Origin: Elusimicrobiota bacterium | Lineage (GTDB): Bacteria; CG03; SLGR01; PWQF01 | Length of the DNA stretch: 45,462 nucleotides | NCBI GenBank assembly: GCA_003557485.1 | Contig: PWOI01000091.1 | Coordinates: 1 to 45,462 of the forward strand | Direction: 5' to 3' | Part shown: positions 19,981 through 39,347 of the stretch, one piece after another | Layout of the letters: every line of letters starts with the position of its first letter | How positions within the stretch are numbered: the first letter of the stretch is position 1 | Position numbers and translations under genes: made by a program | Notes under the pieces: model-generated | Databases searched by the model: none | Seen by the model: the letters and a program-made list of their open reading frames with translations, nothing else | What the model was told of the DNA's origin: nothing

Positions 19981-22194
19981 CTATTCTTTTTCCAGAACTT
20001 CGGAAAAACTTGAATCTTTCCCGGCAAGGACAAGAACCGTACTGGGCATATTTTCGATACGCCTGCTTATATTCTCATAACTGGCGGTAAAATTTTTACC
20101 GGGGACAGGCAGTCCGTGAAATATAATATCGGCGTTTTTTGATGACTCAATAAATATTTCATCAAAACTCCGGTTCATCCCTTCAATAACTTCATATTCC
20201 ACATCAGTGATATTATATGTAGTTATCATATTTTGAAGATTCTCCCGCGCTCCTTTTACGGCAGATTCGTCCGAAACCACAAGCTTAACCGTAAGTTTGG
20301 ACCCCCTCCATGGATCTTCCAGCCTGAGAGAATCTGCAAGTATAAGCATAAGCCCGCCGTTGCCTTCAAGCCCCCCCCACCAGACATCGATATTTTTCAC
20401 TTGCCTACCTTCCGGTTCACGGTCAAGAGGAGTGGCAGGATTATTTCTGAATATCATCGCGTTTTTGCCGCTATGGTAGATATGTTCCAAGAGTTTAAAA
20501 TACTTTTCCCGAACTTCCCTTTCTTCCCTTTCCGTATCTCCTAGAAGTATTGTGTTGGGGACAATCGGGCCCAACCCATAAGCCTCGATAAGACGTTCAG
20601 CTCCGGTAAACGGATCCGGCGCCGATATCAACCGGACCAGCGCAGGGACTCCTCGTTTATCCATATAGTCTTTAATAGCCCTCTCCAGTCCGGCTTTCTG
20701 CTTTGCGTCTTTGCTGTCATACGGAAGGACTGTAACAACAGTAAACATACCTCTTCTCTGCGTGATCATATCAGAGAGTTCAATCAGGTGCCATCTCCTT
20801 GTGGGAGCTCCCGATAAGACAAGAATATTAGGCCTCCAGTTTCTGGAATCGGGCGTCATGTCAATTTGAAAGAGGCCGGTGCGGATAAGCATCATCCATA
20901 ATCCGCTGCGGATATCACCCCACTTGCTTTCCAGGCCCCGCCGTTCAAGCCATACATATATCGATATAACAGAAAAGGCCGCAACTGCTGTTGCTGTCGG
21001 ATTAATGAGAAACATAATGGTTATACACCCTAATGCACCAAGCATTGGAAAAAACCAGTGTACCCGCAAAGACGGTTTAAAAGAAGGATTCTTTAAAAAG
21101 CTCTCAATACCTGCTGTAAAATTAAGAACAAGGTATGTAGCCAGAAAAAACATCGTAAGAACAGGAGCCAGCATATTAAGATTCCCTATATAAACAAGAA
21201 AAAGGGCTATCAGCATTGTTATGGCAGTCCCTGCCCGAGGCTCCCCTAGAACTCCCGCGCCCCGGCCAAGCCACCGCATCCAATCCGGCAGAACTCTTTC
21301 CCGGGCCATAGCCTGAAGAACCCGCGGGGCGCTAAGAAACATTCCGATGGCGCTTGAAAGAGTTGCGCCCCACACACCGAGCAGAACCAGAGCGCCCCAC
21401 CTTGCGCTGTCAAACATAACCAGAGGATTGCTTATAAGCTCACTTGCGGAAACACGCGTGGAAAATAATATTGCCAATCCCATATATACAATATAACCCA
21501 AGATAACCGCTGCCATTGTACCGAGAGGAATGGATCTTCCCGGATTTTTAAGATCTCCGGACATATTTATACCTACATCCATTCCGGTCACAGCCGGAAA
21601 GAAGACTGCAAAAACAGGCCAGAAACCTGCCCGCACGGCCGGCTCTACTGTTTGAGCCCCTGCTGGATCCGCTCCCGAGCCCAGCAGAAAAGATATCAAT
21701 GAAGCTGCTATAGCAGCCATTATCAGATACTGGGCTTTCAGCGCCGTTTTTGCAGATTTATAAGCCAGCATTGCAACAATAAAAACAGTAATTATTCCCG
21801 CAGTCCTCTGGTTTATGCTGGGTAAAGCAAAAGCAAGGCTCTCGGAAAAACCCATTATGTAAAAAGGAATTGAAAAAGCCTGGGCTATATAGAGAGGAAT
21901 ACCTATCGCTCCTCCGGCTTCAAACCCCAATGCCCTGCTGATCATATAGTATGAACCGCCAGCGCGAACTTTTTTATCCGTAGCAATAACAGATACTGAG
22001 AGGCCTGTAAGAAAAGATATACTGCTTGCAGCCGTAATGATAACAAGTGTGCCGGTTAATCCTACATTACCTACCACCCAACCCAGCCTCAAGTACATTA
22101 TCACGCCGAGTATAGTCAGTATGGATGGAGTAAATACTCCCCCGAACGTACCGAATTTTGCGTTCTCTTTTTTATCCTGCGTTCTATTTTTCAT
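19981..22194 (-). CDS. Cation-chloride cotransporter (SLC12/CCC)-like APC-superfamily transporter with C-terminal soluble domain
   Basis: KFGTFGGVFTPSILTILGVIMYLRLGWVVGNVGL, RAGGSYYMISRALGFEAGGAIGIPLY; soluble tail NWRPNILVLSGAPTRRWHLIELSDMITQRRGMFTVVTVL. Confidence 0.87.
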   Translation of the reverse strand: MKNRTQDKKENAKFGTFGGVFTPSILTILGVIMYLRLGWVVGNVGLTGTLVIITAASSISFLTGLSVSVIATDKKVRAGGSYYMISRALGFEAGGAIGIPLYIAQAFSIPFYIMGFSESLAFALPSINQRTAGIITVFIVAMLAYKSAKTALKAQYLIMAAIAASLISFLLGSGADPAGAQTVEPAVRAGFWPVFAVFFPAVTGMDVGINMSGDLKNPGRSIPLGTMAAVILGYIVYMGLAILFSTRVSASELISNPLVMFDSARWGALVLLGVWGATLSSAIGMFLSAPRVLQAMARERVLPDWMRWLGRGAGVLGEPRAGTAITMLIALFLVYIGNLNMLAPVLTMFFLATYLVLNFTAGIESFLKNPSFKPSLRVHWFFPMLGALGCITIMFLINPTATAVAAFSVISIYVWLERRGLESKWGDIRSGLWMMLIRTGLFQIDMTPDSRNWRPNILVLSGAPTRRWHLIELSDMITQRRGMFTVVTVLPYDSKDAKQKAGLERAIKDYMDKRGVPALVRLISAPDPFTGAERLIEAYGLGPIVPNTILLGDTEREEREVREKYFKLLEHIYHSGKNAMIFRNNPATPLDREPEGRQVKNIDVWWGGLEGNGGLMLILADSLRLEDPWRGSKLTVKLVVSDESAVKGARENLQNMITTYNITDVEYEVIEGMNRSFDEIFIESSKNADIIFHGLPVPGKNFTASYENISRRIENMPSTVLVLAGKDSSFSEVLEKE

Positions 22195-22211: not shown

Positions 22212-24458
22212 CTATAAGCTTTCAGGTTCTTCTTCATTTTCAGGAAGAGTTTTCAGTGTGAATGTAAAGGTTGTTCCTGCTCCCATTTCGCTTTCGGCCC
22301 ATATCCTGCCTCCATGATCTTCAATTATATCCCTGCTTATTGAAAGGCCAAGGCCCTTACCCTCTTCTTTACTGTCAAGCTGCATATACTTTTTGAATAT
22401 TTTTTCAAGATTTTTTTCTGGGATACCCGGGCCGGAATCCGAGACGGATAGATATACCATATCCTTTTTGCGGTATGCAGAAATTTTAATATCGTCACCC
22501 GACCTGGTATATCTGACAGCATTGCCCAGAAGATTGGTAATCACCCAACATATTTTATGGGCATCAACACTGACCGGCGGTAAACCTTCTTGTATGTCAG
22601 ATAAAATATTAACCTGTTTTTCCGCTGCCTGTTTTTCAATTGATTTAAGAGCAAATTTAATCATCCGCTCAACTTCAGTATCCTCATGGTGGGAATATTC
22701 CAGTTTTATTTCAGGCAGTTTGCCGGAAACCTCTTTATGGTAAGCTTCCAGAATATCTTTCCTGCTTATAATGCCTTTCAATTTAACCACCTCATTTTTT
22801 TCTATGACAGGCAAATATTTCAACTTGATTTTACTTGTCAGTTTTAAGGCTTTCATTAAATCATCGTTTTCGGATAACGAGGCAGGAGAAGGGAAAGTGA
22901 TATCCTTTACCTGCAAATTTTCATTTTCGGCCTCAGAAAAGGATAAAATTTGACGGGAATTTAACATTCCAAGGAAGTTGCCGGTTTTTTCTTCAATAAC
23001 CGGCAAATGAGAATAAAATGCTTTCTTAAAGATATCTTTTGCCACTCTTATATTACAGGAAGCCTCCAGCACAACAGGATCAGTATCCATAACATCTCTG
23101 ACCGAAATATTTCTTAAAATACTGGTTTCACGAAAGGAATCAATATCTATACCTCTGTTAAGCAATTTTGTAGTATAGATATTTCTATCCTGAAAGCGTG
23201 AAGTAATAACCGTGCTTATTATACAGGCAAACATCAAAGGCAGAAAAATCATGGGTTCTCTTGTCATTTCAAAGAGTATGATTATCGCGGTTAAAGGAGC
23301 GTGGGCTGCTCCTGCAAAAACAGCTCCCATTGCAACTATACCGTAGGAACCGGCGCCGGCCACAATATCCGGAAAAAAAGAATGAAGTAATCCGCCGTAG
23401 GCGCTTCCCAGCATTGCACCTATAAAAAGAGAGGGAGCAAAAATTCCTCCGGAACCGCCGCTACCGAGCGTCAGGTCAGTAGCTAAAATTTTAGTCAGCA
23501 TCAGAGTAATAACTAAAGTTATAGGCAAATAACCATGAAGGGCCTGGACCATAACCGGATAACCCGTAGAATGGACCTGCGGAACCCACAGGGCAAGCGA
23601 ACCCAGCAATAATCCTCCCAGAGCCGGCTTTAAAAAAGAGGGAAATTTTATCTTCTCGAATAAATGTTCCAAAGAATAAAGTGAACTTGAAAAAAGCAAA
23701 GCCACTATAGCGGCAAGCACACCCAGGCCGATATACGGAATAAATTCCCAGAAACTTACGATGTAATATTCAGGAACATGAAGTAAAGCCTTGCGCAGAC
23801 CGAAAAAAAGATTTGCTATTACCGTCCCTACGACCGAAGCGACAATAATGGGAGCAAAACTATCCATTTCTATATCTTTTAATAAGACTTCTATACTGAA
23901 TATCACCCCTGCCAGGGGAGCGTTAAACGTTCCGGCAATGCCGGCGGCCGCGCCGGCTCCCAGTAAGGTCTCGGTTTTTTTCGGACTTAACTTTAAAAAC
24001 TGCCCCACGGAGGAGCCGAAAGATGAGCCGATTTGAACAATAGGGCCCTCCCGTCCGGCAGCGCCGCCCGTGCCTATACATATAGCAGAAACAAGAGCTT
24101 TCAGCGGAGCGACAAGGGGTCTAATCTTGCCGGATTTAAGAGCAACGGCTTCCATTACCTCGGGAACACCATGTCCTTTCGCCTCTTTAACAAGATAGGT
24201 GATTACTGGCCCTACAATCAATCCGCCTATAGCGGGTACAGCTATCCTATAATACCAGGGTAATGCCTGTATGGCTCCTATAAAACCTTCACCGGCAGGA
24301 GAACCGAAAAAAAGTATCTTTATGCCGTTTATTAAATAATGAAACCCTACCGCGCCCAGCCCGCCGACAACTCCGATTACTACCGACAGGGCAATCATAC
24401 CGGGCGTGTCGGCATCTTTGAAAAACTTAAAAATTGTTTTTGGTTGTATTTTAAACAT
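22212..24458 (-). CDS. ClC-family chloride channel/transporter - CBS pair - HATPase_c (histidine-kinase-type) fusion
   Basis: ClC: GHGVPEV, GGAAGREGPIVQIG, NAPLAGVIFSIEV, GGSGGIFAPSL. CBS: VRDVMDTDPVVLEAS..SHLPVIEEKTGNFLGML..LKYLPVIEK..LKGIISRKDIL. HATPase: N box NLLGNAVRYT, G1 DSGPGI, G2 GKGLGLSI. One continuous 748-aa ORF. Confidence 0.92.
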   Translation of the reverse strand: MFKIQPKTIFKFFKDADTPGMIALSVVIGVVGGLGAVGFHYLINGIKILFFGSPAGEGFIGAIQALPWYYRIAVPAIGGLIVGPVITYLVKEAKGHGVPEVMEAVALKSGKIRPLVAPLKALVSAICIGTGGAAGREGPIVQIGSSFGSSVGQFLKLSPKKTETLLGAGAAAGIAGTFNAPLAGVIFSIEVLLKDIEMDSFAPIIVASVVGTVIANLFFGLRKALLHVPEYYIVSFWEFIPYIGLGVLAAIVALLFSSSLYSLEHLFEKIKFPSFLKPALGGLLLGSLALWVPQVHSTGYPVMVQALHGYLPITLVITLMLTKILATDLTLGSGGSGGIFAPSLFIGAMLGSAYGGLLHSFFPDIVAGAGSYGIVAMGAVFAGAAHAPLTAIIILFEMTREPMIFLPLMFACIISTVITSRFQDRNIYTTKLLNRGIDIDSFRETSILRNISVRDVMDTDPVVLEASCNIRVAKDIFKKAFYSHLPVIEEKTGNFLGMLNSRQILSFSEAENENLQVKDITFPSPASLSENDDLMKALKLTSKIKLKYLPVIEKNEVVKLKGIISRKDILEAYHKEVSGKLPEIKLEYSHHEDTEVERMIKFALKSIEKQAAEKQVNILSDIQEGLPPVSVDAHKICWVITNLLGNAVRYTRSGDDIKISAYRKKDMVYLSVSDSGPGIPEKNLEKIFKKYMQLDSKEEGKGLGLSISRDIIEDHGGRIWAESEMGAGTTFTFTLKTLPENEEEPESL

Positions 24459-24466
24459 TGTTTCGA

Positions 24467-26185
24467 TCAGGCGCAGAGGCCGGTTTCATAAACCGCGCGT
24501 CGCAGAATGGTCAGTATTTCATCCGCAGTTTTTGCTTTTTCAACCAGTTCTTCCCTATTTCCCGCGTTGTCTACAACTCGTGAAATACCCCTCAGTATCT
24601 GCAACTGGTATTCCGGATCATCCTCCGGGGTAAAGACCATAAATATCAGATGCACTTCTTTTCCGTCGGGGGAGTTCCACTCAATACCCTGAATACTCCT
24701 TCCCATTAAAATCACGGGTCGGGAAAGACCCTTTAATCTGGCGTGAGGAAAGGAAACCCCTTCTCCCAGGGCGGTGGTCATCTGACTTTCGCGCTCCCTG
24801 ACCGCATCTACCAGAGATTCAGTAGAATAGCCGAGTATCTCCCTTCGAGCGCGGACACATAACTCTTCAATAGCCCCGTCTCTATGAGTAGCCTCAATAT
24901 CGGCAGAAATAGCATCTACCGGTAAAAAAGAGAGCCAGTCACAAGACTGAACTTCCTTAAGAACTTTTTTCATACCCGGACCGGCAATCATAGATGAAAG
25001 GACCGCCCCGAAAACGATAGCAACATAGACAGGGTCGGTGATAACCCTGTACTGCAGAGCAAGAAGTCCTATAACAATCTGCATCTGCCCGCCAGGTATA
25101 TGAGCCAGGGCTATAAACTTGCTGTGCGCGTGTTGCTGTTTTATAAGCCGGCCGCCAATGTAAGCCCCTATGTACCTTCCGAAAACGCCTGCAGCAAATA
25201 TGAAAAAGACCAGAAGAACATCAAAATCTCCTATAAAATCCAGTCTCAGCGCTATTGAGGCGAAAAAGACCGGAACAAGTACGGCATGAACCATTTCTGA
25301 AAATATCCTGCGAGTATTTTCCGATATCAGATCCGACTCCCCCGCTACTATACCGCCTATAAAAAAACCAAAAAGTGCATGTATTCCTATCCAGGTAGTA
25401 ATAGCGCCGCCGGCAAGACCGGCTAGGCATACAAGGGTAAGGGAGCCGGCAGGTTCCGGAACTTTTTTCTTTCTAAGAAAAAGGAGCATCCGGTTAAAAA
25501 TCCCTGGGCCCAGCCAGAGGCTTATACCGGCAAATGCGGCGGTAGCGGTCAATACAAAAAAGATACTCCCAACAGTGAATACAGCTTCGGTGAAGGCCCC
25601 GAGTATCAGGGCAAAAACAACCCAGCCGGCAACATCGTTTATTGTAAGGGCAGACATTATCAGAAGCCCCGTATCTGTACGGTATATTTTTAGCTCCTGC
25701 ATTATTTTAGCGGTAACCGGCAGAGCGCTTATCGTCATAATGGTTCCTATAAAAAGAGCAAAAACAAGAACCGTACTTCCGGGCCCTATGTACCGGCCCG
25801 GAAGAAAAAATACCAGGCCAAAGGCCAGCGCCATGGGTATTACAAGGTCGCTGACAGAAAGTATAAGTGCAGGTCCCCTCTGTCGCCAGGCAGTTGCCAG
25901 GTTGGTATCCAGCCCGGCATCCAGCATAAAGAAAAGGATACCTACCCAGGCAAAAGTATCCAGCATATTCATCTGAACTTCTTCTACAGGAAAGAGAAAT
26001 CCGTGCAGTCCTGGAAAAAGCCTCCCCAGAACAGTCACCCCCATTATAACCCCTACAAGTATTTCAGCCGTAATAGTAGGCTGACCCCGGCGACGGAATA
26101 TCTCTCCCAGACCCCGGGCAAGCCCCAGCAGAATTACTATCTGAATAAGGAATACAAGAATATTATGTTCGCCTATCTGGGTCAT
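24467..26185 (-). CDS. CPA-type cation/proton antiporter fused to C-terminal PTS EIIA (type 2)-like domain
   Basis: N-terminal RRRGQPTITAEILVGVIMG, TINDVAGW (ND motif); C-terminal LVDAVRERESQMTTALGEGVSFPHARLKGLSRPVILMGRSIQGIEWNSPDGKEVHLIFMVFTPEDDPEYQLQILRGISRVV. Confidence 0.9.
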   Translation of the reverse strand: MTQIGEHNILVFLIQIVILLGLARGLGEIFRRRGQPTITAEILVGVIMGVTVLGRLFPGLHGFLFPVEEVQMNMLDTFAWVGILFFMLDAGLDTNLATAWRQRGPALILSVSDLVIPMALAFGLVFFLPGRYIGPGSTVLVFALFIGTIMTISALPVTAKIMQELKIYRTDTGLLIMSALTINDVAGWVVFALILGAFTEAVFTVGSIFFVLTATAAFAGISLWLGPGIFNRMLLFLRKKKVPEPAGSLTLVCLAGLAGGAITTWIGIHALFGFFIGGIVAGESDLISENTRRIFSEMVHAVLVPVFFASIALRLDFIGDFDVLLVFFIFAAGVFGRYIGAYIGGRLIKQQHAHSKFIALAHIPGGQMQIVIGLLALQYRVITDPVYVAIVFGAVLSSMIAGPGMKKVLKEVQSCDWLSFLPVDAISADIEATHRDGAIEELCVRARREILGYSTESLVDAVRERESQMTTALGEGVSFPHARLKGLSRPVILMGRSIQGIEWNSPDGKEVHLIFMVFTPEDDPEYQLQILRGISRVVDNAGNREELVEKAKTADEILTILRRAVYETGLCA

Positions 26186-27018
26186 CTGTTTTTGCCTATT
26201 ATTCGAACTCTTGTTATCAAGAGTCTTCTAATATCATCTATTTCTCCGGCCTTATGCCATTCATCATAGAAATCTTCCATGCGTACCACCTGAGCTATAA
26301 CCGCCAGAACCCTCAGGTAAAAATGCCACTGATCCTCTGTCCCGGCCATCGCAAAGACAGAAGAGACTTTGGGCGACTCGTTTGAAAACCATATTCCATT
26401 CTTTCCCCTTGCCACTACCATTTCAAAGCCCCCGGAGCCGTCTATTATTATATGGGGTATAGCAAATTCAGGTTTGAGAGCCGTAACCGCCTCCCTTTCT
26501 CTCTGGCGAAACCTTCTTGCTATTTCCCGGGGTGAGGAGTCCCGGGCCGTGGCTATTGGTTCACCTATAATTTCAAAAAGGCTGTCGCTGTTAATATGCT
26601 CATCTATGTCAAGTATTGTACATGTTTCAAATATCCTTACAAGCCTGTCTTTTTCAAACTGGTCCTTGCGCCTTGTTACATCCCATAGTTCCGACTCTAT
26701 TTCCCTACCCAGCAGACCATCGGCAGTTACCCTCTCAACTCTAATTCCTGAACTGTGGGCTGCCCGCGCTATGACATGGGCGGAAGCCGGATTTGTAAGA
26801 AGCACAAAAATCATACAGATAAGAGCTTTTGCCGCAAGAGGGCCGGGACCGGCATAAACTGCTGCGCCAATGAGAATAAAAGTGGTTCCTACGGTTACGG
26901 CTTTTGTCGCAGCCTGCAGCCTCGTGTATACATCGGGCATCCTAACAAGTCCGAGGCAGGCAAGGATATCATAAATTATTCCAATGCCTATAAGAGTGAA
27001 CCCTATATACTCATTCAT
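26182..27018 (-). CDS. mnhG: Mrp antiporter subunit G fused to C-terminal PTS EIIA-like domain
   Basis: MnhG: IGIGIIYDILACLGLVRMPDVYTRLQAATKAVTVGTTFILIGA..LLTNPASAHVIARAAHSSGI. EIIA-like: EREAVTALKPEFAIPHIIIDGSGGFEMVVARGKNGIWFSNESPKVSSVFAMAG..WHFYLRVLAVIAQVV. Start taken at MNEYIGF (27018). Confidence 0.88.
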   Translation of the reverse strand: MNEYIGFTLIGIGIIYDILACLGLVRMPDVYTRLQAATKAVTVGTTFILIGAAVYAGPGPLAAKALICMIFVLLTNPASAHVIARAAHSSGIRVERVTADGLLGREIESELWDVTRRKDQFEKDRLVRIFETCTILDIDEHINSDSLFEIIGEPIATARDSSPREIARRFRQREREAVTALKPEFAIPHIIIDGSGGFEMVVARGKNGIWFSNESPKVSSVFAMAGTEDQWHFYLRVLAVIAQVVRMEDFYDEWHKAGEIDDIRRLLITRVRIIGKNR

Positions 27019-27277
27019 CGAAATCTTTTCCTTCCAGGTACTTACCCAGGGCAAGACTTCCTATAAAACTCAGCAGAGCCCACCCTATGGCAACCGATAT
27101 GTAAAAATCCTCGCCGGTGAGAATACTTAAAAGCGTACAGAAACCCACCAGGATTATTCCCATAATTTCTATTGCCACCGCCCGGTCCGGAGCAGTAGGG
27201 CCTGATGCCATCCTGCGCAGGCAGAGAAAAATGCCCAATGTCAACAATATTAATCCGGCATATATAAATTCTGTCAT
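27011..27277 (-). CDS. mnhF: Mrp antiporter subunit F
   Basis: RRMASGPTAPDRAVAIEIMGIILVGFCTLLSILTGEDFYISVAIGWALLSFIGSLALGKYLEG. Confidence 0.9.
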   Translation of the reverse strand: MTEFIYAGLILLTLGIFLCLRRMASGPTAPDRAVAIEIMGIILVGFCTLLSILTGEDFYISVAIGWALLSFIGSLALGKYLEGKDFDE

Positions 27278-27280
27278 AGT

Positions 27281-27799
27281 TTAGTCATCCTCCTCAAAAA
27301 TCTTATGAAGATAGTACTCGAATTTTCCGGCTATCATACGCCCGGCTTCCGCTTCATCTACAGTTTCAACTCTCAGCCAATGTATATAAAGCACTCCGTC
27401 TTCTGTTGCCTCAACTGTCATTGTTCCCGGAGTGAGGGTTATACAATTTGAAAGAACAGTTATAGCAGCGCGATTTTTAAGCTTGGTGTGTATTTTTACT
27501 ATTCCAGGTTTTATAGGCAGTCCGGGATGTATAACCTGATAGGCCACATGCAAACTGGATTTGAGGCAGTAGTAAATAAATACCGGGACAAACCGTATTA
27601 CATACAACCACCTTCGGGGACGCAGTATTTCGGCAGGGTGTTCCGAAAAGCCTTTTCCGAATATTACAGCAACTAAAAACGAAGCAGCCAACCCGGCAGC
27701 AATACCCTGAATATACAGTCCATACGCTCTTGAATAAGGCCATACCAGCAGGCACCAAAGAAAAAAAGAAAGCAAAAATACTTCTATTCTGCTTTTCAA
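27281..27799 (-). CDS. mnhE: Mrp antiporter subunit E
   Basis: VRFVPVFIYYCLKSSLHVAYQVIHPGLPIKPGIVKIHTKLKNRAAITVLSNCITLTPGTMTVE..LYIHWLRV. Confidence 0.92.
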   Translation of the reverse strand: MKSRIEVFLLSFFLWCLLVWPYSRAYGLYIQGIAAGLAASFLVAVIFGKGFSEHPAEILRPRRWLYVIRFVPVFIYYCLKSSLHVAYQVIHPGLPIKPGIVKIHTKLKNRAAITVLSNCITLTPGTMTVEATEDGVLYIHWLRVETVDEAEAGRMIAGKFEYYLHKIFEEDD

Positions 27800-29289
27800 C
27801 GAAGGCTCCCCTCAACCCCTGCTCTTACCTGAGGCATAATGCTTAATCTTGCCGGCTCAATAATCCTTTCCCTCAAGACAGGAATAAACAGAAGCCAGAG
27901 CAGAATACACAAAGCTGAAAGAGACCAGATCGGTATCTTCATCAACAAGGGTATTCTTCCGGATATATTCCGGGCTTTCTTTCTTTTAATCCTGAAATTA
28001 ATTATATTGCTGCGCGTAAGGGAAATTAATGTATATACTGCGGCAGCTGAGGCAATCACACCTGCAGCAAAACCGGAATAAGTCCCGGATATGAAACAGG
28101 CCGCTATTATCATTGCCTTACTTATAAAACCGGCAAACGGAGGAACCCCGGCAAGCGAAAGGATTCCGGCATAAGAAACACCAGGAAAATCTCTGTCTCT
28201 TTTTTCTGGATATTCTGCAGCTCCTGATTTCAAAAAAATAAGCGGAGTGAATACTGCGTAATTCAGCAAATGAAAAATAGCCCCGCTGCCGGCGAGAAAA
28301 ACCGCGGCGGCGGAAGACTCCGAATAAATAAGATGCCACGCAAATCCAAATCCCAGCAATATATATCCAACCTGGGAAATGCTGTAATATGAAATTTTCC
28401 GTTTGTATTCTTTAGTTCCGGAAGCAGTCAGGGTACCGGCGGCAACTGAAAAAAGGCCTATCGCAGCTACTGCCGGACCGAGCCTTAAAGCCCCGGAGAA
28501 TACAGTGTTAACCGTTCTAAGAAGAGCATATATTCCCGTAGAGCTTATAAGAGCACCGGAGACGATGGCGGAAACCGGAGCCGGGGCGGCTGATAGGGCG
28601 TCAGGCTGCCATATATGTAAAGGAAAAGCTGCTGCCTTAAAAACAAAACCCGTTATAGCAAGGCCGGCGGCAAGATGAAGCGGGCTGAACGGATATACAG
28701 TTTCCAGTCCGGATATCACCTCTCCAAGGAGAGCCATATCAACCGTTCCGTAGAGAGCGTAGAGGAAAGCTATCCCAAAAAGGCTGACAGCCGAAGCGGC
28801 CGCTCCCAGTACAGCATATTTCAGAGCTGCGGTTAGTTCTTTCGCTCCGCAACCGAACCCCACAAGCACATACGAAGCTATGGCTGCCAGTTCTACATAT
28901 ACAAATCTGTTGAATATATCGCCGGCAAGAAGCGTGCCGTTTATTCCGGCAGTCATCATAAAAAATAATACATAATAACGATTACGGGACGTGTATGTCT
29001 TCATATAATTTATTGAAAAAAGCATCACTGATAAACCTACAAATGATACAGCGATAAGCATGAGCCACCCGAAAGAGTCAATATGCAGATTTATTCCCAC
29101 AGGGGAACTCCATCCCCCTATTTCATAGATACCTTCATAGCCGTAAAGTGCTGCAGCCATAAGAAAAACAATGGATGATGCAACTAAAGCAATAGAATCT
29201 GCCGATTTCAGCCACTTTCCAGGCAAAAGAGCAAGTATAAAACCTGCAGCAAGAGGAAAAGCAACTAAAATTGGAATAAGGTTATTCAC
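27796..29289 (-). CDS. mnhD: Mrp antiporter subunit D (NuoL/M/N-type proton-translocating subunit)
   Basis: GDIFNRFVYVELAAIASYVLVGFG, LAAGLAITGFVFKAAAFPLHIWQPDALSAAPAPVSAIVSG, ISQVGYILLG. Confidence 0.92.
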   Translation of the reverse strand: MNNLIPILVAFPLAAGFILALLPGKWLKSADSIALVASSIVFLMAAALYGYEGIYEIGGWSSPVGINLHIDSFGWLMLIAVSFVGLSVMLFSINYMKTYTSRNRYYVLFFMMTAGINGTLLAGDIFNRFVYVELAAIASYVLVGFGCGAKELTAALKYAVLGAAASAVSLFGIAFLYALYGTVDMALLGEVISGLETVYPFSPLHLAAGLAITGFVFKAAAFPLHIWQPDALSAAPAPVSAIVSGALISSTGIYALLRTVNTVFSGALRLGPAVAAIGLFSVAAGTLTASGTKEYKRKISYYSISQVGYILLGFGFAWHLIYSESSAAAVFLAGSGAIFHLLNYAVFTPLIFLKSGAAEYPEKRDRDFPGVSYAGILSLAGVPPFAGFISKAMIIAACFISGTYSGFAAGVIASAAAVYTLISLTRSNIINFRIKRKKARNISGRIPLLMKIPIWSLSALCILLWLLFIPVLRERIIEPARLSIMPQVRAGVEGSLR

Positions 29290-29645
29290 GTTTTTTCCTC
29301 TTCCTGCTTTTTCTTTATTTCATCAATATTATAGGTGCCGTAAATGTGATACAATCTCAGTGCTATAGCAATCATAAGAGCCATAACACTTAAGCCTATT
29401 ACTATGGAAGTAACAACCATAGCCTGCGGAAAAGGATCAACCGACAATTCCATAATTTTCCCGTGAGATGTATGCCGGGTAATGATTGGGGCAAGCCCCT
29501 CTTTCCTGTACCCGACGAGCACCAGAAAAAGATTTACGGCGCTTTCAATAATAGAGACCGATATAATAATCTTTATTATATTCCGCTGCGTAAGAAGACC
29601 AAAAAGCCCTACCAGAAAAAGAACGGAAGTCAAAGTATAGAGCAT
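29286..29645 (-). CDS. mnhC: Mrp antiporter subunit C
   Basis: MLYTLTSVLFLVGLFGLLTQRNIIKIIISVSIIESAVNLFLV..DPFPQAMVVTSIVIGLSVMALMIAIALRLY. Start ATG at 29645 rather than 29732. Confidence 0.9.
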   Translation of the reverse strand: MLYTLTSVLFLVGLFGLLTQRNIIKIIISVSIIESAVNLFLVLVGYRKEGLAPIITRHTSHGKIMELSVDPFPQAMVVTSIVIGLSVMALMIAIALRLYHIYGTYNIDEIKKKQEEEKT

Positions 29646-30112
29646 CAGTCCTCCTCCATCGTTTTCATCTCTGTATCTTTTCCGACACGAAGGGCGCTTA
29701 TGAACAGTATAACAAGAAAAATTGAGGCGCATATCTTTATGCCTATTGCAAAATTATTAATCATTACCGTCCCCGCGCTGAAGAGCCGTAATTCCTGCCC
29801 GGGAAAGATCTGATTAAGAAAATTCAAAAAGAAAACCCTGGCAAAAATCAAACCTGCAAATGCGGTCAAAAGAAAAATAAAAGCGCCGGAAGCATCAAGT
29901 TTTTTGGCAAAAACATAAGGCATGCGTTTCAAAGCCGCAAGTTTACCCCGGGCAAGTAGAGCAAGGATAAACGAACAGGCAAGAACTACTCCACCGGGAA
30001 AACCGCCGCCCGGGGAAAGATGTCCGTATGCTATAAGATGAACTCCATAAAGAAAAATAAACGGTGAAACCCATCTTGATATAATTACTGCTATCAGGCT
30101 ACGGTCTTTCAA
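29645..30112 (-). CDS. mnhB: Mrp antiporter subunit B
   Basis: WVSPFIFLYGVHLIAYGHLSPGGGFPGGVVLACSFIL. Confidence 0.9.
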   Translation of the reverse strand: MKDRSLIAVIISRWVSPFIFLYGVHLIAYGHLSPGGGFPGGVVLACSFILALLARGKLAALKRMPYVFAKKLDASGAFIFLLTAFAGLIFARVFFLNFLNQIFPGQELRLFSAGTVMINNFAIGIKICASIFLVILFISALRVGKDTEMKTMEED

Positions 30113-30684
30113 GCTGTATCCCCCCTGCTTACCTCATCACCAGCGGAAATATTCCTTCCCCTTTTTCTCAACAGGGCAATTCCGCCCAGTACCGCTGTAA
30201 ATATTACGGTTGCTTCACCAAGTGTATCATACGCCCTGAAATCCAGGAGTATGGCCGTAACCAGATTTGACGCACCGGTAGAATGCAATCCATATTCTAT
30301 ATAAAAAATTGAGGGTGCATATTGTACCCTGCCCATCACAGCGTCTCCGAAAGCAGGAAATAGCCTGAGTGAAAAAGCAAAGACAAAAGATGTAAGAAGG
30401 ACTACAGCACCGGCAACTGCAGTACGGGTTTTTGAACAACAGCCGGCAGTAAGCCTCAGTCCCACACCAATGGTAACCCTGATTAGAAGAACAAGAGAAA
30501 CAACCTCAACAACTATCTGGGTAATTGCAAGGTCAGGAGCGCCCATAATAAGGTATGCAATACTTCCGCCGAAACCCAATGCCCCGATAGCTATTATGGC
30601 GGAAATAAGTTCGTCGGTAAAAAGCGCCACAACAGAAGATATTATCATAAATACGAGGATGGAAATAAGGAGGGATTCGGTCAT
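30109..30684 (-). CDS. Stand-alone MrpA C-terminal (MbhD/MbhE, DUF4040-like) subunit
   Basis: ISAIIAIGALGFGGSIAYLIMGAPDLAITQIVVEVVSLVLLIRV, then NLVTAILLDFRAYDTLGEATVIFTAVLGGIALLR. Confidence 0.85.
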   Translation of the reverse strand: MTESLLISILVFMIISSVVALFTDELISAIIAIGALGFGGSIAYLIMGAPDLAITQIVVEVVSLVLLIRVTIGVGLRLTAGCCSKTRTAVAGAVVLLTSFVFAFSLRLFPAFGDAVMGRVQYAPSIFYIEYGLHSTGASNLVTAILLDFRAYDTLGEATVIFTAVLGGIALLRKRGRNISAGDEVSRGDTA

Positions 30685-30888: not shown

Positions 30889-32064
30889 TTATTCAGAAAC
30901 TCTGAACTGGACTTCGTCTATGAAAACAATCCCCTCCTTGTTGGATACATTCCACTCATCAAACATTATATTAAATTGTTTTATGGACGTTTTATCTAAA
31001 CCATCGAAATCATTTAATGGTATAACATATTCATTCCAATTAGTAGTTATGTCTTCAACAACCTCATCGCGGGTATCTGTTTCATCCACTAATTCTAATC
31101 TGATATTCTCGGGATTTTCCCCGGCGCTGCTGGCTTTTATATAAAAACTAAGGTAATTGTAATCTGATAAATCAACTTCCTGTTCATCACCCCCGTCTCC
31201 ACCACCGCCAAATAACATCCAAACTCCACCCCATGAGCCTTCAACATCGTACTCTATTCTCATAGAATTAGGATAACTTACATATTCCGATTCATCATAA
31301 TATTCACTGGCTCCTCCCATTGCTCCGTTATTGCCTCCCAGAGCGTTACGGCCCCATTTATCCCCGAAGTGGTCTATTCGCAAAATATCCTTGGGATCAT
31401 CGGTAAACATAAGCTCGTCTATATAAAGTATTGCGTCCTTAGGAAAATCATTAACTTCCGCATAGGCCTCTTCAAAAACAAACGATATTACATCAACGTT
31501 TTCAAAACTGTCCAGGTTAGCAAAAGCTTCCAGAGGTATTTTCACTTGCTGATATTCATCGGTAACCCCTCCGTCAAGGTAATCATTAATATAAAGTAAA
31601 GACTTTCTTCTGTCAGCATCCAAACTGCGGTTTTCAAGCTCTATTTTTACAGGTATATTATCAGTAGAGCCCTTAACCTGGAAACTGAGATAGGTATATG
31701 TGGTTATATCAACACCGGACTCGTCACCGGTAAGAGTGAAAAAGACTCCTGCCCAATCATCTGGTCCGGAAACATCATAATCCAGAGCCAGGCAGTAATC
31801 GCCTACTTTAGCATGCTCTGAATCATAATTCATTTCTATGGATCCGTGATCATCCATTTTTTCAATTACACCGCCCCAATAATTTTGTCCCTGTATGTGA
31901 TCAAAATCATCTATTAAGTTTTCGGGAACATCCGGCGGTAAAACTGTGGCTGTAGCCGTTATGGATGAAGAAACGACAGCATCGCCATATAAACTTGTAG
32001 GTTGGAATAATGCTGTAAGCAGTACTATTGTCGCTGATATCTTTATTATTTCCGGTAGTTTCAA
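30889..32064 (-). CDS. Exported protein with two tandem CBM11-like/beta-sandwich domains
   Basis: Signal peptide; internal duplication: LIDDFDHIQGQNYWGG..YLSFQVKGS..ILYIDELMF versus RIDHFGDKWGRNALGG..YLSFYIKASS..IVFIDEVQF. Confidence 0.75.
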   Translation of the reverse strand: MKLPEIIKISATIVLLTALFQPTSLYGDAVVSSSITATATVLPPDVPENLIDDFDHIQGQNYWGGVIEKMDDHGSIEMNYDSEHAKVGDYCLALDYDVSGPDDWAGVFFTLTGDESGVDITTYTYLSFQVKGSTDNIPVKIELENRSLDADRRKSLLYINDYLDGGVTDEYQQVKIPLEAFANLDSFENVDVISFVFEEAYAEVNDFPKDAILYIDELMFTDDPKDILRIDHFGDKWGRNALGGNNGAMGGASEYYDESEYVSYPNSMRIEYDVEGSWGGVWMLFGGGGDGGDEQEVDLSDYNYLSFYIKASSAGENPENIRLELVDETDTRDEVVEDITTNWNEYVIPLNDFDGLDKTSIKQFNIMFDEWNVSNKEGIVFIDEVQFRVSE

Positions 32065-33024
32065 TTAAAACCTCCCCGAAAGAGACACCCTGTGGGAACC
32101 GTAGGATTCTCTTATACCATTAACAGGAAGAATAAATGAGTAGTCTATACTCATTTTAACCATCTCTTCAAATTCATGCAAAAATCCAGTTCCAAGCGAT
32201 ATGCCGTTAAGGCCTGCTCCCGTAAAATCCAACCCCCCCCTGAAAGGAAGTGTCTCATCAAGAAACCAACCTTCAACACCCGCTTTAAACGAAATCTTAT
32301 CCCTGTCGTCCCCCCACTTCTGGAAGCGCCAGCATATGTCCAGCGCAGTTACTATATTTCTTGCCGGGACTTGTTCAAAAAGCAGAACATTAGGAAGCCT
32401 GTAAGCTGCACCCAGTCTTAAAACCGGAGGAACTATATCTTTATGTGTAAGCCCGATATCGGCCGGAATCAGATTCTGTCCTGCAGCGGCAAGGTTTAGA
32501 TCCTGGAGGGGCTTGAAAATAACACCCAGGTCTGCCGTAACAGCATCTGAATACTTCCCGCCTTCAAATACCGGGTCGGCTTTAGCATATTTATCAAGAG
32601 TATATCCCTGTCCCAGGTACTTGAGGCTCACACCTCCGCTAAGCTGAGGAATAAATCTGTGTCCGTATGATATGATAAAAGTATCTTCTCTGTAAAGATC
32701 GCGGGCATTAAGATTTGTCCAGGCAACCCCAATACCGCCTGCATAATGAACTGGCATAGCAAATGAAACCAGGTTGAGTCCTATTTTTACCTCATCAAGC
32801 CCCATAAAAAGACCGGCATGCATTGCGCAGGCATTATATTCCTTAATATTCGTAAGGCCGGCGGGATTAAAGAAAACGGCATTGGAATCATCAGAAACTG
32901 CCGTGAAAGCTCCCCCCATACCGGTAGGACGCGCCCCCCATCCCGGGTCAAGAAAAGCTGCGCGTGAGTGACCGGCTGAAAGTATTATTATAAATATTAT
33001 TATACTATGTTTTATTTTCTTCAT
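32065..33024 (-). CDS. PorV/UPF0164-like outer-membrane beta-barrel protein
   Basis: Signal peptide, GWGARPTGMGGAFTAVSDDSNAVFFNPAGLTNIKEYNACAMHAGLF, C-terminal aromatic SGRF. Confidence 0.8.
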   Translation of the reverse strand: MKKIKHSIIIFIIILSAGHSRAAFLDPGWGARPTGMGGAFTAVSDDSNAVFFNPAGLTNIKEYNACAMHAGLFMGLDEVKIGLNLVSFAMPVHYAGGIGVAWTNLNARDLYREDTFIISYGHRFIPQLSGGVSLKYLGQGYTLDKYAKADPVFEGGKYSDAVTADLGVIFKPLQDLNLAAAGQNLIPADIGLTHKDIVPPVLRLGAAYRLPNVLLFEQVPARNIVTALDICWRFQKWGDDRDKISFKAGVEGWFLDETLPFRGGLDFTGAGLNGISLGTGFLHEFEEMVKMSIDYSFILPVNGIRESYGSHRVSLSGRF

Positions 33025-34349
33025 TTTGCCACCGCCACCATACCGGAGACAAGCTGGTTTTTACCATCTACTTTAACCTTAAACTGGTAAATATAGATAC
33101 CGCTCTCAACAATATTGCCCCGGCCGTCCGTACCATCCCATATATATGGTTCTCTTGTTAGTTTGGACACTTCTCTGCCGGTAATGTCAAATATTCTTAC
33201 AGTTGTGCTCTGTCCGCTAAGGCCCTGAAAGACAAGCTCGGTATTCATAACGCTGCAGGCCGGAGTTATTATCCTTTTCCGGGGGCGAAAATCATCCCCG
33301 GAAAGAGTATTTACGGCATATATTCCATAAATGCCTGTTTTGTTGAGGTTTACTCCCAAAAACAAGTCTCCCTCAAAAGGTTCTTCATCTCCCCCTATAA
33401 ATTCCCACTCTTCAAACTGATTGTCCCAGTGAAAAAGAGATATTTTGCTGATACTGTGGGCAGAAATACCGGGACCTAAGTCCGCTGTTTTAAGCCCGTA
33501 AAACCATAATTTTACAGGCCGCTTAAATTTCAGCCCTTCCGGCTCAATTTTATATACATTTAAAGGTTTATTGTCGGCTGCCTGCTTAGGGGATTCTTTA
33601 TCAAAAACATCCGTGTTTAATTGATAGAGTGTAATCACTGTATCTTTTTCTAAGGCTTTTGGAGGAATTTCAATATATGAGCCGTTACTAAGTGTGATTT
33701 TTCCTCCTTTTGCAGCTTTTACTGCTGCAGAAGATTTATCAACTACGGAATCAGGTTCCGGATCTACGGGAAGAATCTCTTCAATGGCTAGATCAACTGT
33801 TATTAGCGTTTGATAATAACCCGGAGACGCTTGAGAAAAATCTCCCTGTATATACATATGGGCTGTTGTTCCTGAAAGAGTTTTATTAGAAAGGTTTGCA
33901 AAAGTAGGCACAACCGATATATCTTTTTTATCTTCTATTCTATGCCATCCGGCACCTGTACCGGTAGAAGGAGTAACAAAAGGAGCTTCTTTGAGTATAT
34001 TGCAAAACAAATCAACACTCTCAAAATATTGATCGGTTATGGTATTTGTTGCAATCAGGCCGCGATAGGGTCCCTCGCCGCTCTGCCCGCGCAGAGTCTT
34101 TCCTTCTATACCGAAATTCTCAGTATTATTTGTATAAGCACGAAACCAGACATTAAACTCCTCATCTTCGAAAGTTATTTCTACATGAGGAACACCTATG
34201 ACATAGCCGGCACTACGGGAAAGGCCCTCTCCGAAAGATATGGGAGCAGTAGTTATATTAACATTAATGCTGCCGGCTGAAGCTCTTACGGCAAACAACA
34301 ATAAGCAGACAAATATTATAGATATAGTTTGTAAATATCTTCGGATCAT
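33021..34349 (-). CDS. Exported protein with ZU5-like segment and C-terminal FlgD-like/T9SS-type domain
   Basis: Signal peptide; GGKITLSNGSYIEIPPKALEKDTVITLYQL; C-terminal TTVRIFDITGREVSKLTREPYIWDGTDGRGNIVESGIYIYQFKV. Confidence 0.75.
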   Translation of the reverse strand: MIRRYLQTISIIFVCLLLFAVRASAGSINVNITTAPISFGEGLSRSAGYVIGVPHVEITFEDEEFNVWFRAYTNNTENFGIEGKTLRGQSGEGPYRGLIATNTITDQYFESVDLFCNILKEAPFVTPSTGTGAGWHRIEDKKDISVVPTFANLSNKTLSGTTAHMYIQGDFSQASPGYYQTLITVDLAIEEILPVDPEPDSVVDKSSAAVKAAKGGKITLSNGSYIEIPPKALEKDTVITLYQLNTDVFDKESPKQAADNKPLNVYKIEPEGLKFKRPVKLWFYGLKTADLGPGISAHSISKISLFHWDNQFEEWEFIGGDEEPFEGDLFLGVNLNKTGIYGIYAVNTLSGDDFRPRKRIITPACSVMNTELVFQGLSGQSTTVRIFDITGREVSKLTREPYIWDGTDGRGNIVESGIYIYQFKVKVDGKNQLVSGMVAVAK

Positions 34350-35116
34350 TTTACCATAAATTCTGTTGAATCTCCCTTAACAGAATATTCTCTGTCATAA
34401 TCCATACCATATTTGATAAGCGGCTGAGCAATATATCTGCCCGAAGGCAAATCCAATTCATTGAGAACGGCCTGTCTTGCAGAAAATTTTTCGATCTGTC
34501 CCGGAAAAATAGGAGTACGTCCGACAAGTTCAATTTTTGCTGCAGAACTATCTCCACTTCCGGAAATAAAAACATGAACTTCGGGCCTAATATGCGCATT
34601 GCCGTCATTCTCAATTCTTAAGCTCATAGAAGCGTTTGATATTTTAATATCGGTTACATTGCAGGACATATTCAATCCTTCGTCTGCTGCAGCATATACA
34701 GGAAACCCGAATCTTCTCTGAACAGACACTCCCCCTCCGGATATGTCAATGTTTTGGACTGCGAAAAAATTCATAGCAACAACTTCTCCGTTTAAACCCG
34801 ATGGCAGCTTTATGCTATAATCAATTGCCCGGGTTTCACCGGGATCAAGAGTAAATTCACGTGGAGTCAATGTAAACCATTCGGCAACATCAATACCGGA
34901 ATTCTCACTGTTAATGCCCCTGAGCTTAAGCCAGTTTTCCGAAGCCACACTGAAAGAAACCGTATCGGATGAAGGATTTTTAATTATATACTCTCCAGAG
35001 TATGCTTTTCCTGAAGGTATTGCAACCCTTATCATTTGCGGGTTAACCTGCAGATCTGATCTCAGAGTACCGCTGGCAGCAAGACACAAAGCCGTTGCTG
35101 CCAGCAATTTTTTCAT
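34346..35116 (-). CDS. Periplasmic chaperone-like/Ig-like exported protein (PapD- or DUF916-like)
   Basis: Signal peptide MKKLLAATALCLAASGTLRS; LQVNPQMIRVAIPSGKAYSGEYIIKNPSSDTVSFSVASENWLKL..WFTLTPREFTLDPGETRAIDYSIKLP. Confidence 0.6.
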   Translation of the reverse strand: MKKLLAATALCLAASGTLRSDLQVNPQMIRVAIPSGKAYSGEYIIKNPSSDTVSFSVASENWLKLRGINSENSGIDVAEWFTLTPREFTLDPGETRAIDYSIKLPSGLNGEVVAMNFFAVQNIDISGGGVSVQRRFGFPVYAAADEGLNMSCNVTDIKISNASMSLRIENDGNAHIRPEVHVFISGSGDSSAAKIELVGRTPIFPGQIEKFSARQAVLNELDLPSGRYIAQPLIKYGMDYDREYSVKGDSTEFMVK

Positions 35117-35192
35117 AAATGAAGCTGCCATCCGCGTTATCTCTCGATAGAGCAGATACTGCGGCTATATAAAGGAGAAAGAACCACCCCTT

Positions 35193-35867
35193 TTACTCAA
35201 GAAACATATCAACCACAAAATTTCCGCTGTATTCTCCTGGAGCATTATTCTCATAAGTACAGAGATACACGTGAAATTCAAAAGGGGATTCCAGGGTATA
35301 AAGACCGGCGGGTGCCCCCACTACATTAAACCACTCACTAAAACTTCCAAAACCGAGATTAAGGTAGGAATCATAGACAAAACCCATATCTCCGGTATCC
35401 GCTACCCATCTCCAATGGTCGTAATTAGTCATCGCATCATTGCCCGGATCAGCGGGTTCCGGTACTGTTCCCGCCGCCGTTGTACTTGTCGGTACAGCGG
35501 CCCAGGCAAGTCTGACGGTTGACGAAGAAACTTTATTGACAAGCCCGCCGAACTCATCAGTCTGCCAGGCAACAGTGTCAGGTGTAACATCAAAATTGTT
35601 GGTGTAAATTGCTAAATTCCAGGCAGCATAATTTGCTGTTGCTTTTACTATAATGTAATTTTCACCTAAATGATACCGCTCATTAATGGTACCAAGTGCC
35701 AATATTGTAGGATCTCCACCCGATGATACTATAGAAAGAGAAATGGTTTCTCCCACTGTTGCTGTTGCGCTGAGTTCCTCTGATAAAAGTGCCTGCGCTC
35801 TTGCAGTTGAAACAACAAAAAACGCAACTAGCGTTCCCGCTGCTACTAATCCGATTAGTCTTTTCAT
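35193..35867 (-). CDS. Exported protein of unknown function, candidate surface subunit
   Basis: Signal peptide MKRLIGLVAAGTLVAFFVVSTARA, then LSEELSATATVGETISLSIVSSG; predicted beta-rich. Confidence 0.65.
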   Translation of the reverse strand: MKRLIGLVAAGTLVAFFVVSTARAQALLSEELSATATVGETISLSIVSSGGDPTILALGTINERYHLGENYIIVKATANYAAWNLAIYTNNFDVTPDTVAWQTDEFGGLVNKVSSSTVRLAWAAVPTSTTAAGTVPEPADPGNDAMTNYDHWRWVADTGDMGFVYDSYLNLGFGSFSEWFNVVGAPAGLYTLESPFEFHVYLCTYENNAPGEYSGNFVVDMFLE

Positions 35868-38402: not shown

Positions 38403-39347
38403 TTAAGCCGGATTAATAAAGCTAAGAGTTGCTTTGTCCAGTATATGTCCGCTCATTGCCTTTTCCAGTTTAAGGCATTTTGAGCCCTCAGGCAGATCAA
38501 GTTTACAATCCAGAGCATATAACTTAAAGACGTAAATATGGTGTAAAGATGAAGAAGAGGGCCCCAAATATCCGGTATTGCCATAATCGTTTATTCCTGG
38601 AACACAGAGTGGATATGTACCTTCTTCTATTTCTTCTGTTTCCGGCGGGATATTCCATAAAATCCAATAGATTCTTACCCCCAGAAGCCCCTCGTAATCC
38701 GACATTATAAGGGCCAGGGATTCCGTCCCCTCCGGAACGCTGTCAATTCTTAAAGGAGGTAAGATATTCTCTCCCCTGCACGTATACTTTTCAGGAATTT
38801 CACCGCCGTCAGGGAAAGCAGGACTGGATAGTTTCATCCCGGGCCTTTTGGACGGTTCGTCTCCTATCAGGTTTATTATATAAGGTTTCACAAGGTTCTT
38901 TAAGCCAAGCATTATAACTACCGCTGCGGCCATAAAAACAAGGGTCCTTATATTCCACTCGTTAAGGACAAGGCCCAGCGCAATCCCGGCAGCCGGAGGA
39001 TGTTCTGTATTTGTTGCGACCATTATGAAGATTGCCACTCCGACAGCCACTCCGCCTGCTATATAAAGGGCATATTTATCCGGAAGGGCGGGCGTAAAAA
39101 AAAGATCCATCAAAACACCTACAAGCATACCCACGGTATATCCCCCCGCTACCGTTCTCAAAGAACTCATAAAATGTCTCGGACGGGTAAAAATAGTAAA
39201 AGATGTTGCCCCTAAAGAAGCTATAAGAGCGGTCTGAATTTCAAGGTCAAGAAAAACAAGAATTAAAGCTATGGAAAATATAGCCGCAAGGCTCTGCAGT
39301 ATATATTTATAAGGGTCTCTTCTAAGTTTCCAGTCAAAAAGATACAT
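38403..39347 (-). CDS. HPP-family membrane protein fused to PEBP (YbhB/RKIP) domain
   Basis: HPP part: LGATSFTIFTRPRH..NTEHPPAAGIALGLVL. PEBP part: MKLSSPAFPDGGEIPEKYTCRGENILPPLRIDSVPEGTESLALIMSDYEG..YWILWNIP..HHIYVFKLYALD. Confidence 0.88.
   Translation of the reverse strand: MYLFDWKLRRDPYKYILQSLAAIFSIALILVFLDLEIQTALIASLGATSFTIFTRPRHFMSSLRTVAGGYTVGMLVGVLMDLFFTPALPDKYALYIAGGVAVGVAIFIMVATNTEHPPAAGIALGLVLNEWNIRTLVFMAAAVVIMLGLKNLVKPYIINLIGDEPSKRPGMKLSSPAFPDGGEIPEKYTCRGENILPPLRIDSVPEGTESLALIMSDYEGLLGVRIYWILWNIPPETEEIEEGTYPLCVPGINDYGNTGYLGPSSSSLHHIYVFKLYALDCKLDLPEGSKCLKLEKAMSGHILDKATLSFINPA

Follow-up and report, generated by a model that had tools for sequence, protein, structure and literature searches.

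The gene at positions 22212..24458 (minus strand) of the window, which is the whole 45,462-nt stretch of DNA that was analysed, encodes a ClC protein fused to a CBS pair and to a histidine-kinase-type ATPase domain. It raises the question of what such an ATPase does at the end of a ClC protein that has no obvious phospho-acceptor. Cytosolic control of ClC channels and transporters is for the most part ascribed to CBS domains. A natural ClC that had a kinase-type ATPase but lacked a phospho-acceptor would demonstrate that this fold can be redeployed to gate or sense transport directly.

Domain architecture of the ClC-CBS-HATPase protein

The original prediction of one uninterrupted 748-aa ORF was borne out by the ORF itself, by Pfam and by full-length homologues, and its domain coordinates agreed with the Pfam and PDB alignments. 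All of the domains lie on the minus strand. The ClC core occupies residues 20-440 (23139..24401), as delimited by alignment to CLC-type PDB chains and by a residue table; Pfam placed Voltage_CLC at residues 78-419 (E 1.1e-97), and a PDB sequence search matched the N-terminal part of the protein to CLC-ec1 type structures at about 1.8e-42. The CBS pair at residues 450-575 (22734..23111) was recovered by Pfam as two stretches from residue 453 to about 575 (E 8.4e-19), and was also delimited by PDB CBS proteins and the residue table. A poorly conserved linker (residues 577-592; 22683..22730) leads to the HATPase_c domain at residues 593-738 (22245..22682), which was defined by Pfam, alignments to histidine kinases and the residue table. 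This domain was recovered in two ways. Pfam found it at residues 633-736 (E 1.1e-28), starting later than the domain because the Pfam model omits the first strand and helix. In the PDB search, residues 589-744 matched the sensor kinases WalK/YycG (2e-24), VicK and HK853 (8e-20), within a range of about 1e-25 to about 1e-20.

The motifs claimed for the focal protein were found as described. The ClC core carries GREGP with Glu137 (Glu_ex) and the selectivity loop GSGGSGGIFAP, so that a Voltage_CLC core with GxEGP and a loop of this type, the feature of ClC membership, is present. The HATPase domain carries the N box NLLGNAVRYT (N642/N646), the G1 box DSGPGIP (D674-G676-G678), F688 and the G2 box GKGLGLSI (G700-x-G702-L-G704-L705); these N, G1, F and G2 boxes are the catalytic-domain feature of histidine kinases. 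Since DHp is absent, the protein is not a histidine kinase. By its sequence, it belongs to both the ClC family and the HATPase_c superfamily, outside the histidine kinases.

The predicted lack of a DHp domain was confirmed. Neither the whole focal protein nor its last 188 residues gave a HisKA/DHp match at E values up to 10, while the positive control in the same scan, the kinase L081, scored HisKA 2.8e-21; a hidden DHp was therefore rejected. The HK853 alignment begins at about focal residue 590, just past the end of the HK853 DHp, and approximately 16 residues, with 12-69% identity between homologues, separate the CBS pair from the HATPase. In the residue table of five homologues, no His was conserved in the CBS pair or the linker, and the sole conserved His outside the ClC core was H715, within the HATPase fold. 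With no DHp, so short a linker and no conserved His except H715, phosphotransfer in cis on a conserved His appears very unlikely in these fusions.

In the ClC core, Glu_ex (E137), E190 (equivalent to E202 of CLC-ec1) and Tyr428 are kept. The Glu_in (E203) position is Val191 and the Ser_cen (S107) position is His96 (GHGVPE) in all five fusions, which thus lack the Glu_in and Ser_cen features of the CLC-ec1-type Cl-/H+ antiporters. Since Val and His at these positions were also found in most of the non-fused relatives sampled, they are features of the subgroup. All CLC channels have Val at E203, and some antiporters also have no dissociable residue there (PMC3519907). The fusion is predicted to be a ClC-type anion channel or transporter, and the Glu_in residue does not decide between the two. 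The original wording of a ClC chloride channel thus stood for the ClC core, whereas "channel" and "transporter" are both possible, given the Val at Glu_in and the His at Ser_cen. In CBS2, R566 and D568 (RxD) are kept in all five homologues, and we take D568 to be the counterpart of Asp753 of AtCLCa from knowledge of the motif rather than from an alignment. CLC proteins bind nucleotides through their CBS domains. In AtCLCa, the CBS2 residue Asp753 contacts ATP and control by ATP needs no hydrolysis (PMC10423218). Nucleotide control could be attributable to the CBS pair alone.

The fusion was compared with four known systems. The prokaryotic ClC-CBS and ClC-CBS-TrkA_C proteins (GHGVPE subgroup; NCBIfam ClcB-like PRK01862) are about 41-46% identical to it over the ClC core and CBS pair, and share the GHGVPE/GREGP motifs, the CBS pair and the lack of Glu at Glu_in; however, the C-terminal module of these proteins is TrkA_C or is absent. 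TrkA_C, a small domain that binds ligands in K+ channels and transporters, came straight after the CBS region in nine of the ten related ClC proteins with long C-termini that were scanned, and the shorter relatives sampled ended after the CBS pair. Therefore, the HATPase sits in the slot of a regulatory ligand-binding domain. Eukaryotic CLCs (AtCLCa, ClC-1, ClC-3/4/5) likewise have a cytosolic CBS pair with a conserved CBS2 Asp, and nucleotide control has been reported there (PMC10423218), but they carry no GHKL domain and the nucleotide lies between the CBS domains. The SLC5-STAC histidine kinase CbrA resembles the fusion in having a transporter and a HATPase in one polypeptide; nevertheless, CbrA keeps a full kinase, with STAC, PAS and a DHp containing the essential His766 (PMC7096432), whereas the fusion has ClC in place of SLC5 and no DHp, and Pfam finds in it ClC, CBS and HATPase_c only. 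The HAMP-PAS-HisKA-HATPase kinases, such as L081 of genome G039, share with it a HATPase (44% identical) and a W-containing N-box helix, but they have HisKA/DHp and sensor domains and no ClC. No description of the ClC and HATPase combination was found in the open-licence literature, in agreement with the original remark that no characterised ClC with a kinase-type ATPase was known; the combination may already stand in a domain-architecture database.

Recurrence and origin of the fusion

The architecture of about 750 aa comprising ClC, CBS and HATPase_c was found by Pfam in five copies from four genomes of two phyla. Apart from the focal gene, these are a full-length paralogue in the window's own genome (G000:C110; 51% identity to the focal protein), a full-length homologue in a genome of the same order (G005:C48; 52%) and full-length homologues in both sampled genomes of another phylum (G033:C15 and G061:C83; 50-51%). 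The window's genome is a fragmented draft of 212 contigs, in which two genes might have been joined by assembly or sequencing. However, this junction is also present in four further genes, which lie on separate contigs (five copies over four genomes). Since the architecture recurs at full length in all of them, chance or misassembly is excluded and the assembly chimera was rejected. Such an artefact, which had been foreseen as one of the points on which the prediction might fail, is left with virtually no probability.

Within the window's phylum, two of 16 genomes have the fusion. Two overlapping searches of 386 genomes each, covering many families at E <1e-120 and <1e-140, limits that very diverged members could escape, gave no further fusion. 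With five copies in a total of roughly 400 different genomes, the fusion is therefore rare. Wider taxon searches covered small phyla of four and six genomes and added little. Peptide patterns in the GTDB contig collection returned only distant HATPase matches in unrelated kinases, and the viral contigs contained no ClC-HATPase relatives. The recurrence in two phyla suggests that the ClC-HATPase protein is a rare, real regulatory design.

In a ClC-core tree of 46 sequences, the five fusions formed one clade (support 100/99), in which the focal protein branched before the other four. They grouped in one clade again (100/98) in a tree of 40 HATPase domains, taken from these genomes and from others, with the same inner order and the focal domain basal. 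The two trees are most simply read as a single capture of a kinase HATPase, after which both parts descended together. W638 and T641 in the N-box helix are common to the five fusions, and a similar KIGWVISNLIGNALRYT is present in L081. An L081-like kinase may be near the donor type of the fusion HATPase, a link that the HATPase tree does not resolve. The locus L012 (G047:C60) was tried as a sixth member and rejected, as its ClC did not join the fusion clade in the tree. The ClC of L012 is 51% identical to the focal core and ends at the contig end, and no convincing C-terminal half was found for it.

The ATP site and selection on the HATPase domain

The original prediction of an intact ATP site holds for the focal copy, which is basal in the tree and keeps every box, but not for the family, in which four of the five copies are degenerate (L065:4759-7026, L062:2323-4581, L063:1388-3649 and L064:8917-11172). 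In these four, H or S stands in place of the first N-box Asn, the G2 glycines G700 and G702 are lost (GxG to [EQ][KR]C), and part of the ATP lid is missing; the stretch from G1 to G2 counts 28 residues in the focal copy and 23-26 in the others. Invariant in all five are N646 (the Mg Asn), D674 (the adenine Asp of G1), G676, G678, F688 and G704-L705. With G2 and the first N-box Asn degenerate in four copies, ATP binding may not be what the five proteins have in common. In the four degenerate homologues, Cys invariably takes the place of the second G2 glycine (KC[LQ]GL / RCLGL). The window's genome encodes both an intact and a degenerate member, so that ATP-dependent and ATP-independent regulation could readily be compared there.

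Approximately 27 residues of the HATPase domain are invariant over the five genes. Between G000b and G005, dN/dS was 0.38 for the HATPase, 0.20 for the CBS pair and 0.09 for the ClC core; by these ratios, the HATPase domain is held under purifying selection. Since the catalytic glycines were lost and yet the domain was kept, a binding or regulatory module is likelier than an enzyme.

Gene neighbourhood and proposed regulation

In the window, a same-strand (minus) run comprises Mrp/Mnh genes, MnhG-EIIA, CPA2-EIIA, the ClC-HATPase gene and an SLC12-type permease. Immediately upstream of the fusion, after an 8-nt gap, lies a CPA2 Na+/H+ exchanger fused to a PTS EIIA domain (24467..26185; Pfam, NCBIfam), and next to it an MnhG antiporter subunit fused to an EIIA domain whose AIPH motif is retained in the translation (26182..27054; Pfam, NCBIfam). 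Other Mrp/Mnh-type antiporter genes (MbhD/E-like, MnhB, MnhC-like (Oxidored_q2), MnhD and MnhE; Pfam and ORF list) fill 27011..30684, and the ORF at 27011-27277 is a probable MnhF, by its position and size only. Downstream, after a 17-nt gap, lies the SLC12-type (K-Cl cotransporter-like) permease (19981..22194; TIGR00930 3e-125; Pfam). The paralogue at G000:C110 stands tail to tail with a second Mnh-MnhG-EIIA set; in G005, an SLC12 gene is just upstream of the fusion and MnhG-EIIA is convergent; in G033 and G061, TrkH and TrkA are convergent to the fusion. With Mrp/CPA2/SLC12 or Trk neighbours, both phyla thus keep the fusion beside bulk cation transport. Phosphorylation of EIIA domains normally proceeds through EI and HPr. 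Each of the four genomes has EI, and HPr was found in three of them but not in the incomplete G000, so that EIIA control of the neighbouring transporters is plausible. The EIIA tails on the CPA2 exchanger and on MnhG, the latter recurring at G000:C110 and in G005, suggest a PTS-type phospho-control of Na+/H+ antiport.

Several explanations of the captured domain were weighed. The HATPase fold might be retained chiefly as a platform for protein-protein contacts or for stabilising the dimer, with ATP binding residual or irrelevant. The losses in the G2 box, the N box and the lid of four of five copies speak for it, as does the faster evolution of the HATPase compared with the ClC core; however, every box is kept in the focal copy, and D674, N646 and the G1 glycines never vary, and we regard a pure docking role as possible but doubtful. 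The relaxed constraint, the motif loss in several members and the narrow distribution would also fit a recent decay or neutral fusion, which would make the HATPase a functionless C-terminal extension that the protein tolerates. This is quite improbable for a domain kept at full length in five genes over two phyla, with its invariant residues and a dN/dS below 1. An anti-phage defence role was rejected, the only match being a weak one to the HATPase alone (PDC-M43B, 4.5e-6).

The other suggestion was a kinase acting in trans, in which the HATPase would phosphorylate another protein, either one with DHp/HPt or a partner of the Ser/Thr or phospho-His kind, for example the neighbouring EIIA domains, and so report anion flux or volume. 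The focal ATP site is intact, EIIA-bearing transporters adjoin the gene and the MnhG-EIIA proteins have the AIPH motif, and signalling transporter-kinase fusions such as CbrA exist (PMC7096432). Nevertheless, no member has a DHp, the catalytic glycines are lost in four of five, no response regulator or two-component partner gene was found among the neighbour proteins scanned, and the usual phosphorylation of EIIA is by EI and HPr, which these genomes encode to the extent given above. As for an RsbW/SpoIIAB-type Ser kinase, the HATPase_c_2 match stayed below the cut-off of 27.4 bits, with 18.5 bits for the whole protein and 22.2 bits for the C-terminal 188 residues. A trans-acting kinase is therefore unlikely. 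Between the two functions originally offered, ATP-dependent gating or a trans kinase, nucleotide-dependent regulation fits better and the kinase less well, because the G2 glycines and the first N-box Asn are gone from four of five copies while the gene stays under purifying selection, and because the sister proteins carry TrkA_C; gating by ATP itself is a possibility.

The HATPase is thus most likely an allosteric nucleotide-sensing or docking module and not a kinase, as judged from its residues and its slot. As the best overall explanation, to which we give about an even chance (roughly 0.5), a captured HATPase_c would serve as a second cytosolic regulatory module of a ClC and control its anion flux. 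In this proposal, the domain would have been captured, without DHp, from a histidine kinase having a KIxWVIxNLxGNAxRYT N-box helix, would replace the TrkA_C found at the same place in many sister ClCs, and would be stacked as a GHKL/HATPase_c module after the CBS pair. Two HATPase copies would then hang under the ClC/CBS dimer; the AlphaFold single-sequence models had mean pLDDT values of 33 and 35, too low to be informative on the packing. ATP/ADP would be the likeliest ligand of the focal copy, and a partner or another ligand that of the copies with a degenerate lid. Ligand binding would alter the CBS/HATPase packing and turn the anion flux up or down, in step with the K+/Na+/H+/Cl- transporters encoded alongside. 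For the focal copy, this would couple anion flux to energy status or to how active the neighbouring cation transporters are. Nucleotide binding, allosteric control, the direction of the effect and a role in volume, turgor or pH balance are what we infer for the fusion. More tentatively, the anion flux of the ClC dimer might be directly controlled by ATP binding, or by a hydrolysis cycle, in the captured GHKL domain, with the second clade converted to a shortened-lid sensor with the conserved Cys at the second G2 glycine. If true, direct ATP control through a captured GHKL domain would be a new coupling of the cell energy state to anion transport.

Two further observations were made elsewhere on the minus strand of the window. 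A run of ORFs at 30889-35867 has CBM30-like matches, weak CHU_C/FlgD_ig matches or no Pfam match, and perhaps encodes exported proteins. At 38403-39347, a 314-aa ORF combines an HPP transmembrane domain (PF04982) with a phosphatidylethanolamine-binding-protein domain (PF01161), which is an unusual pairing.
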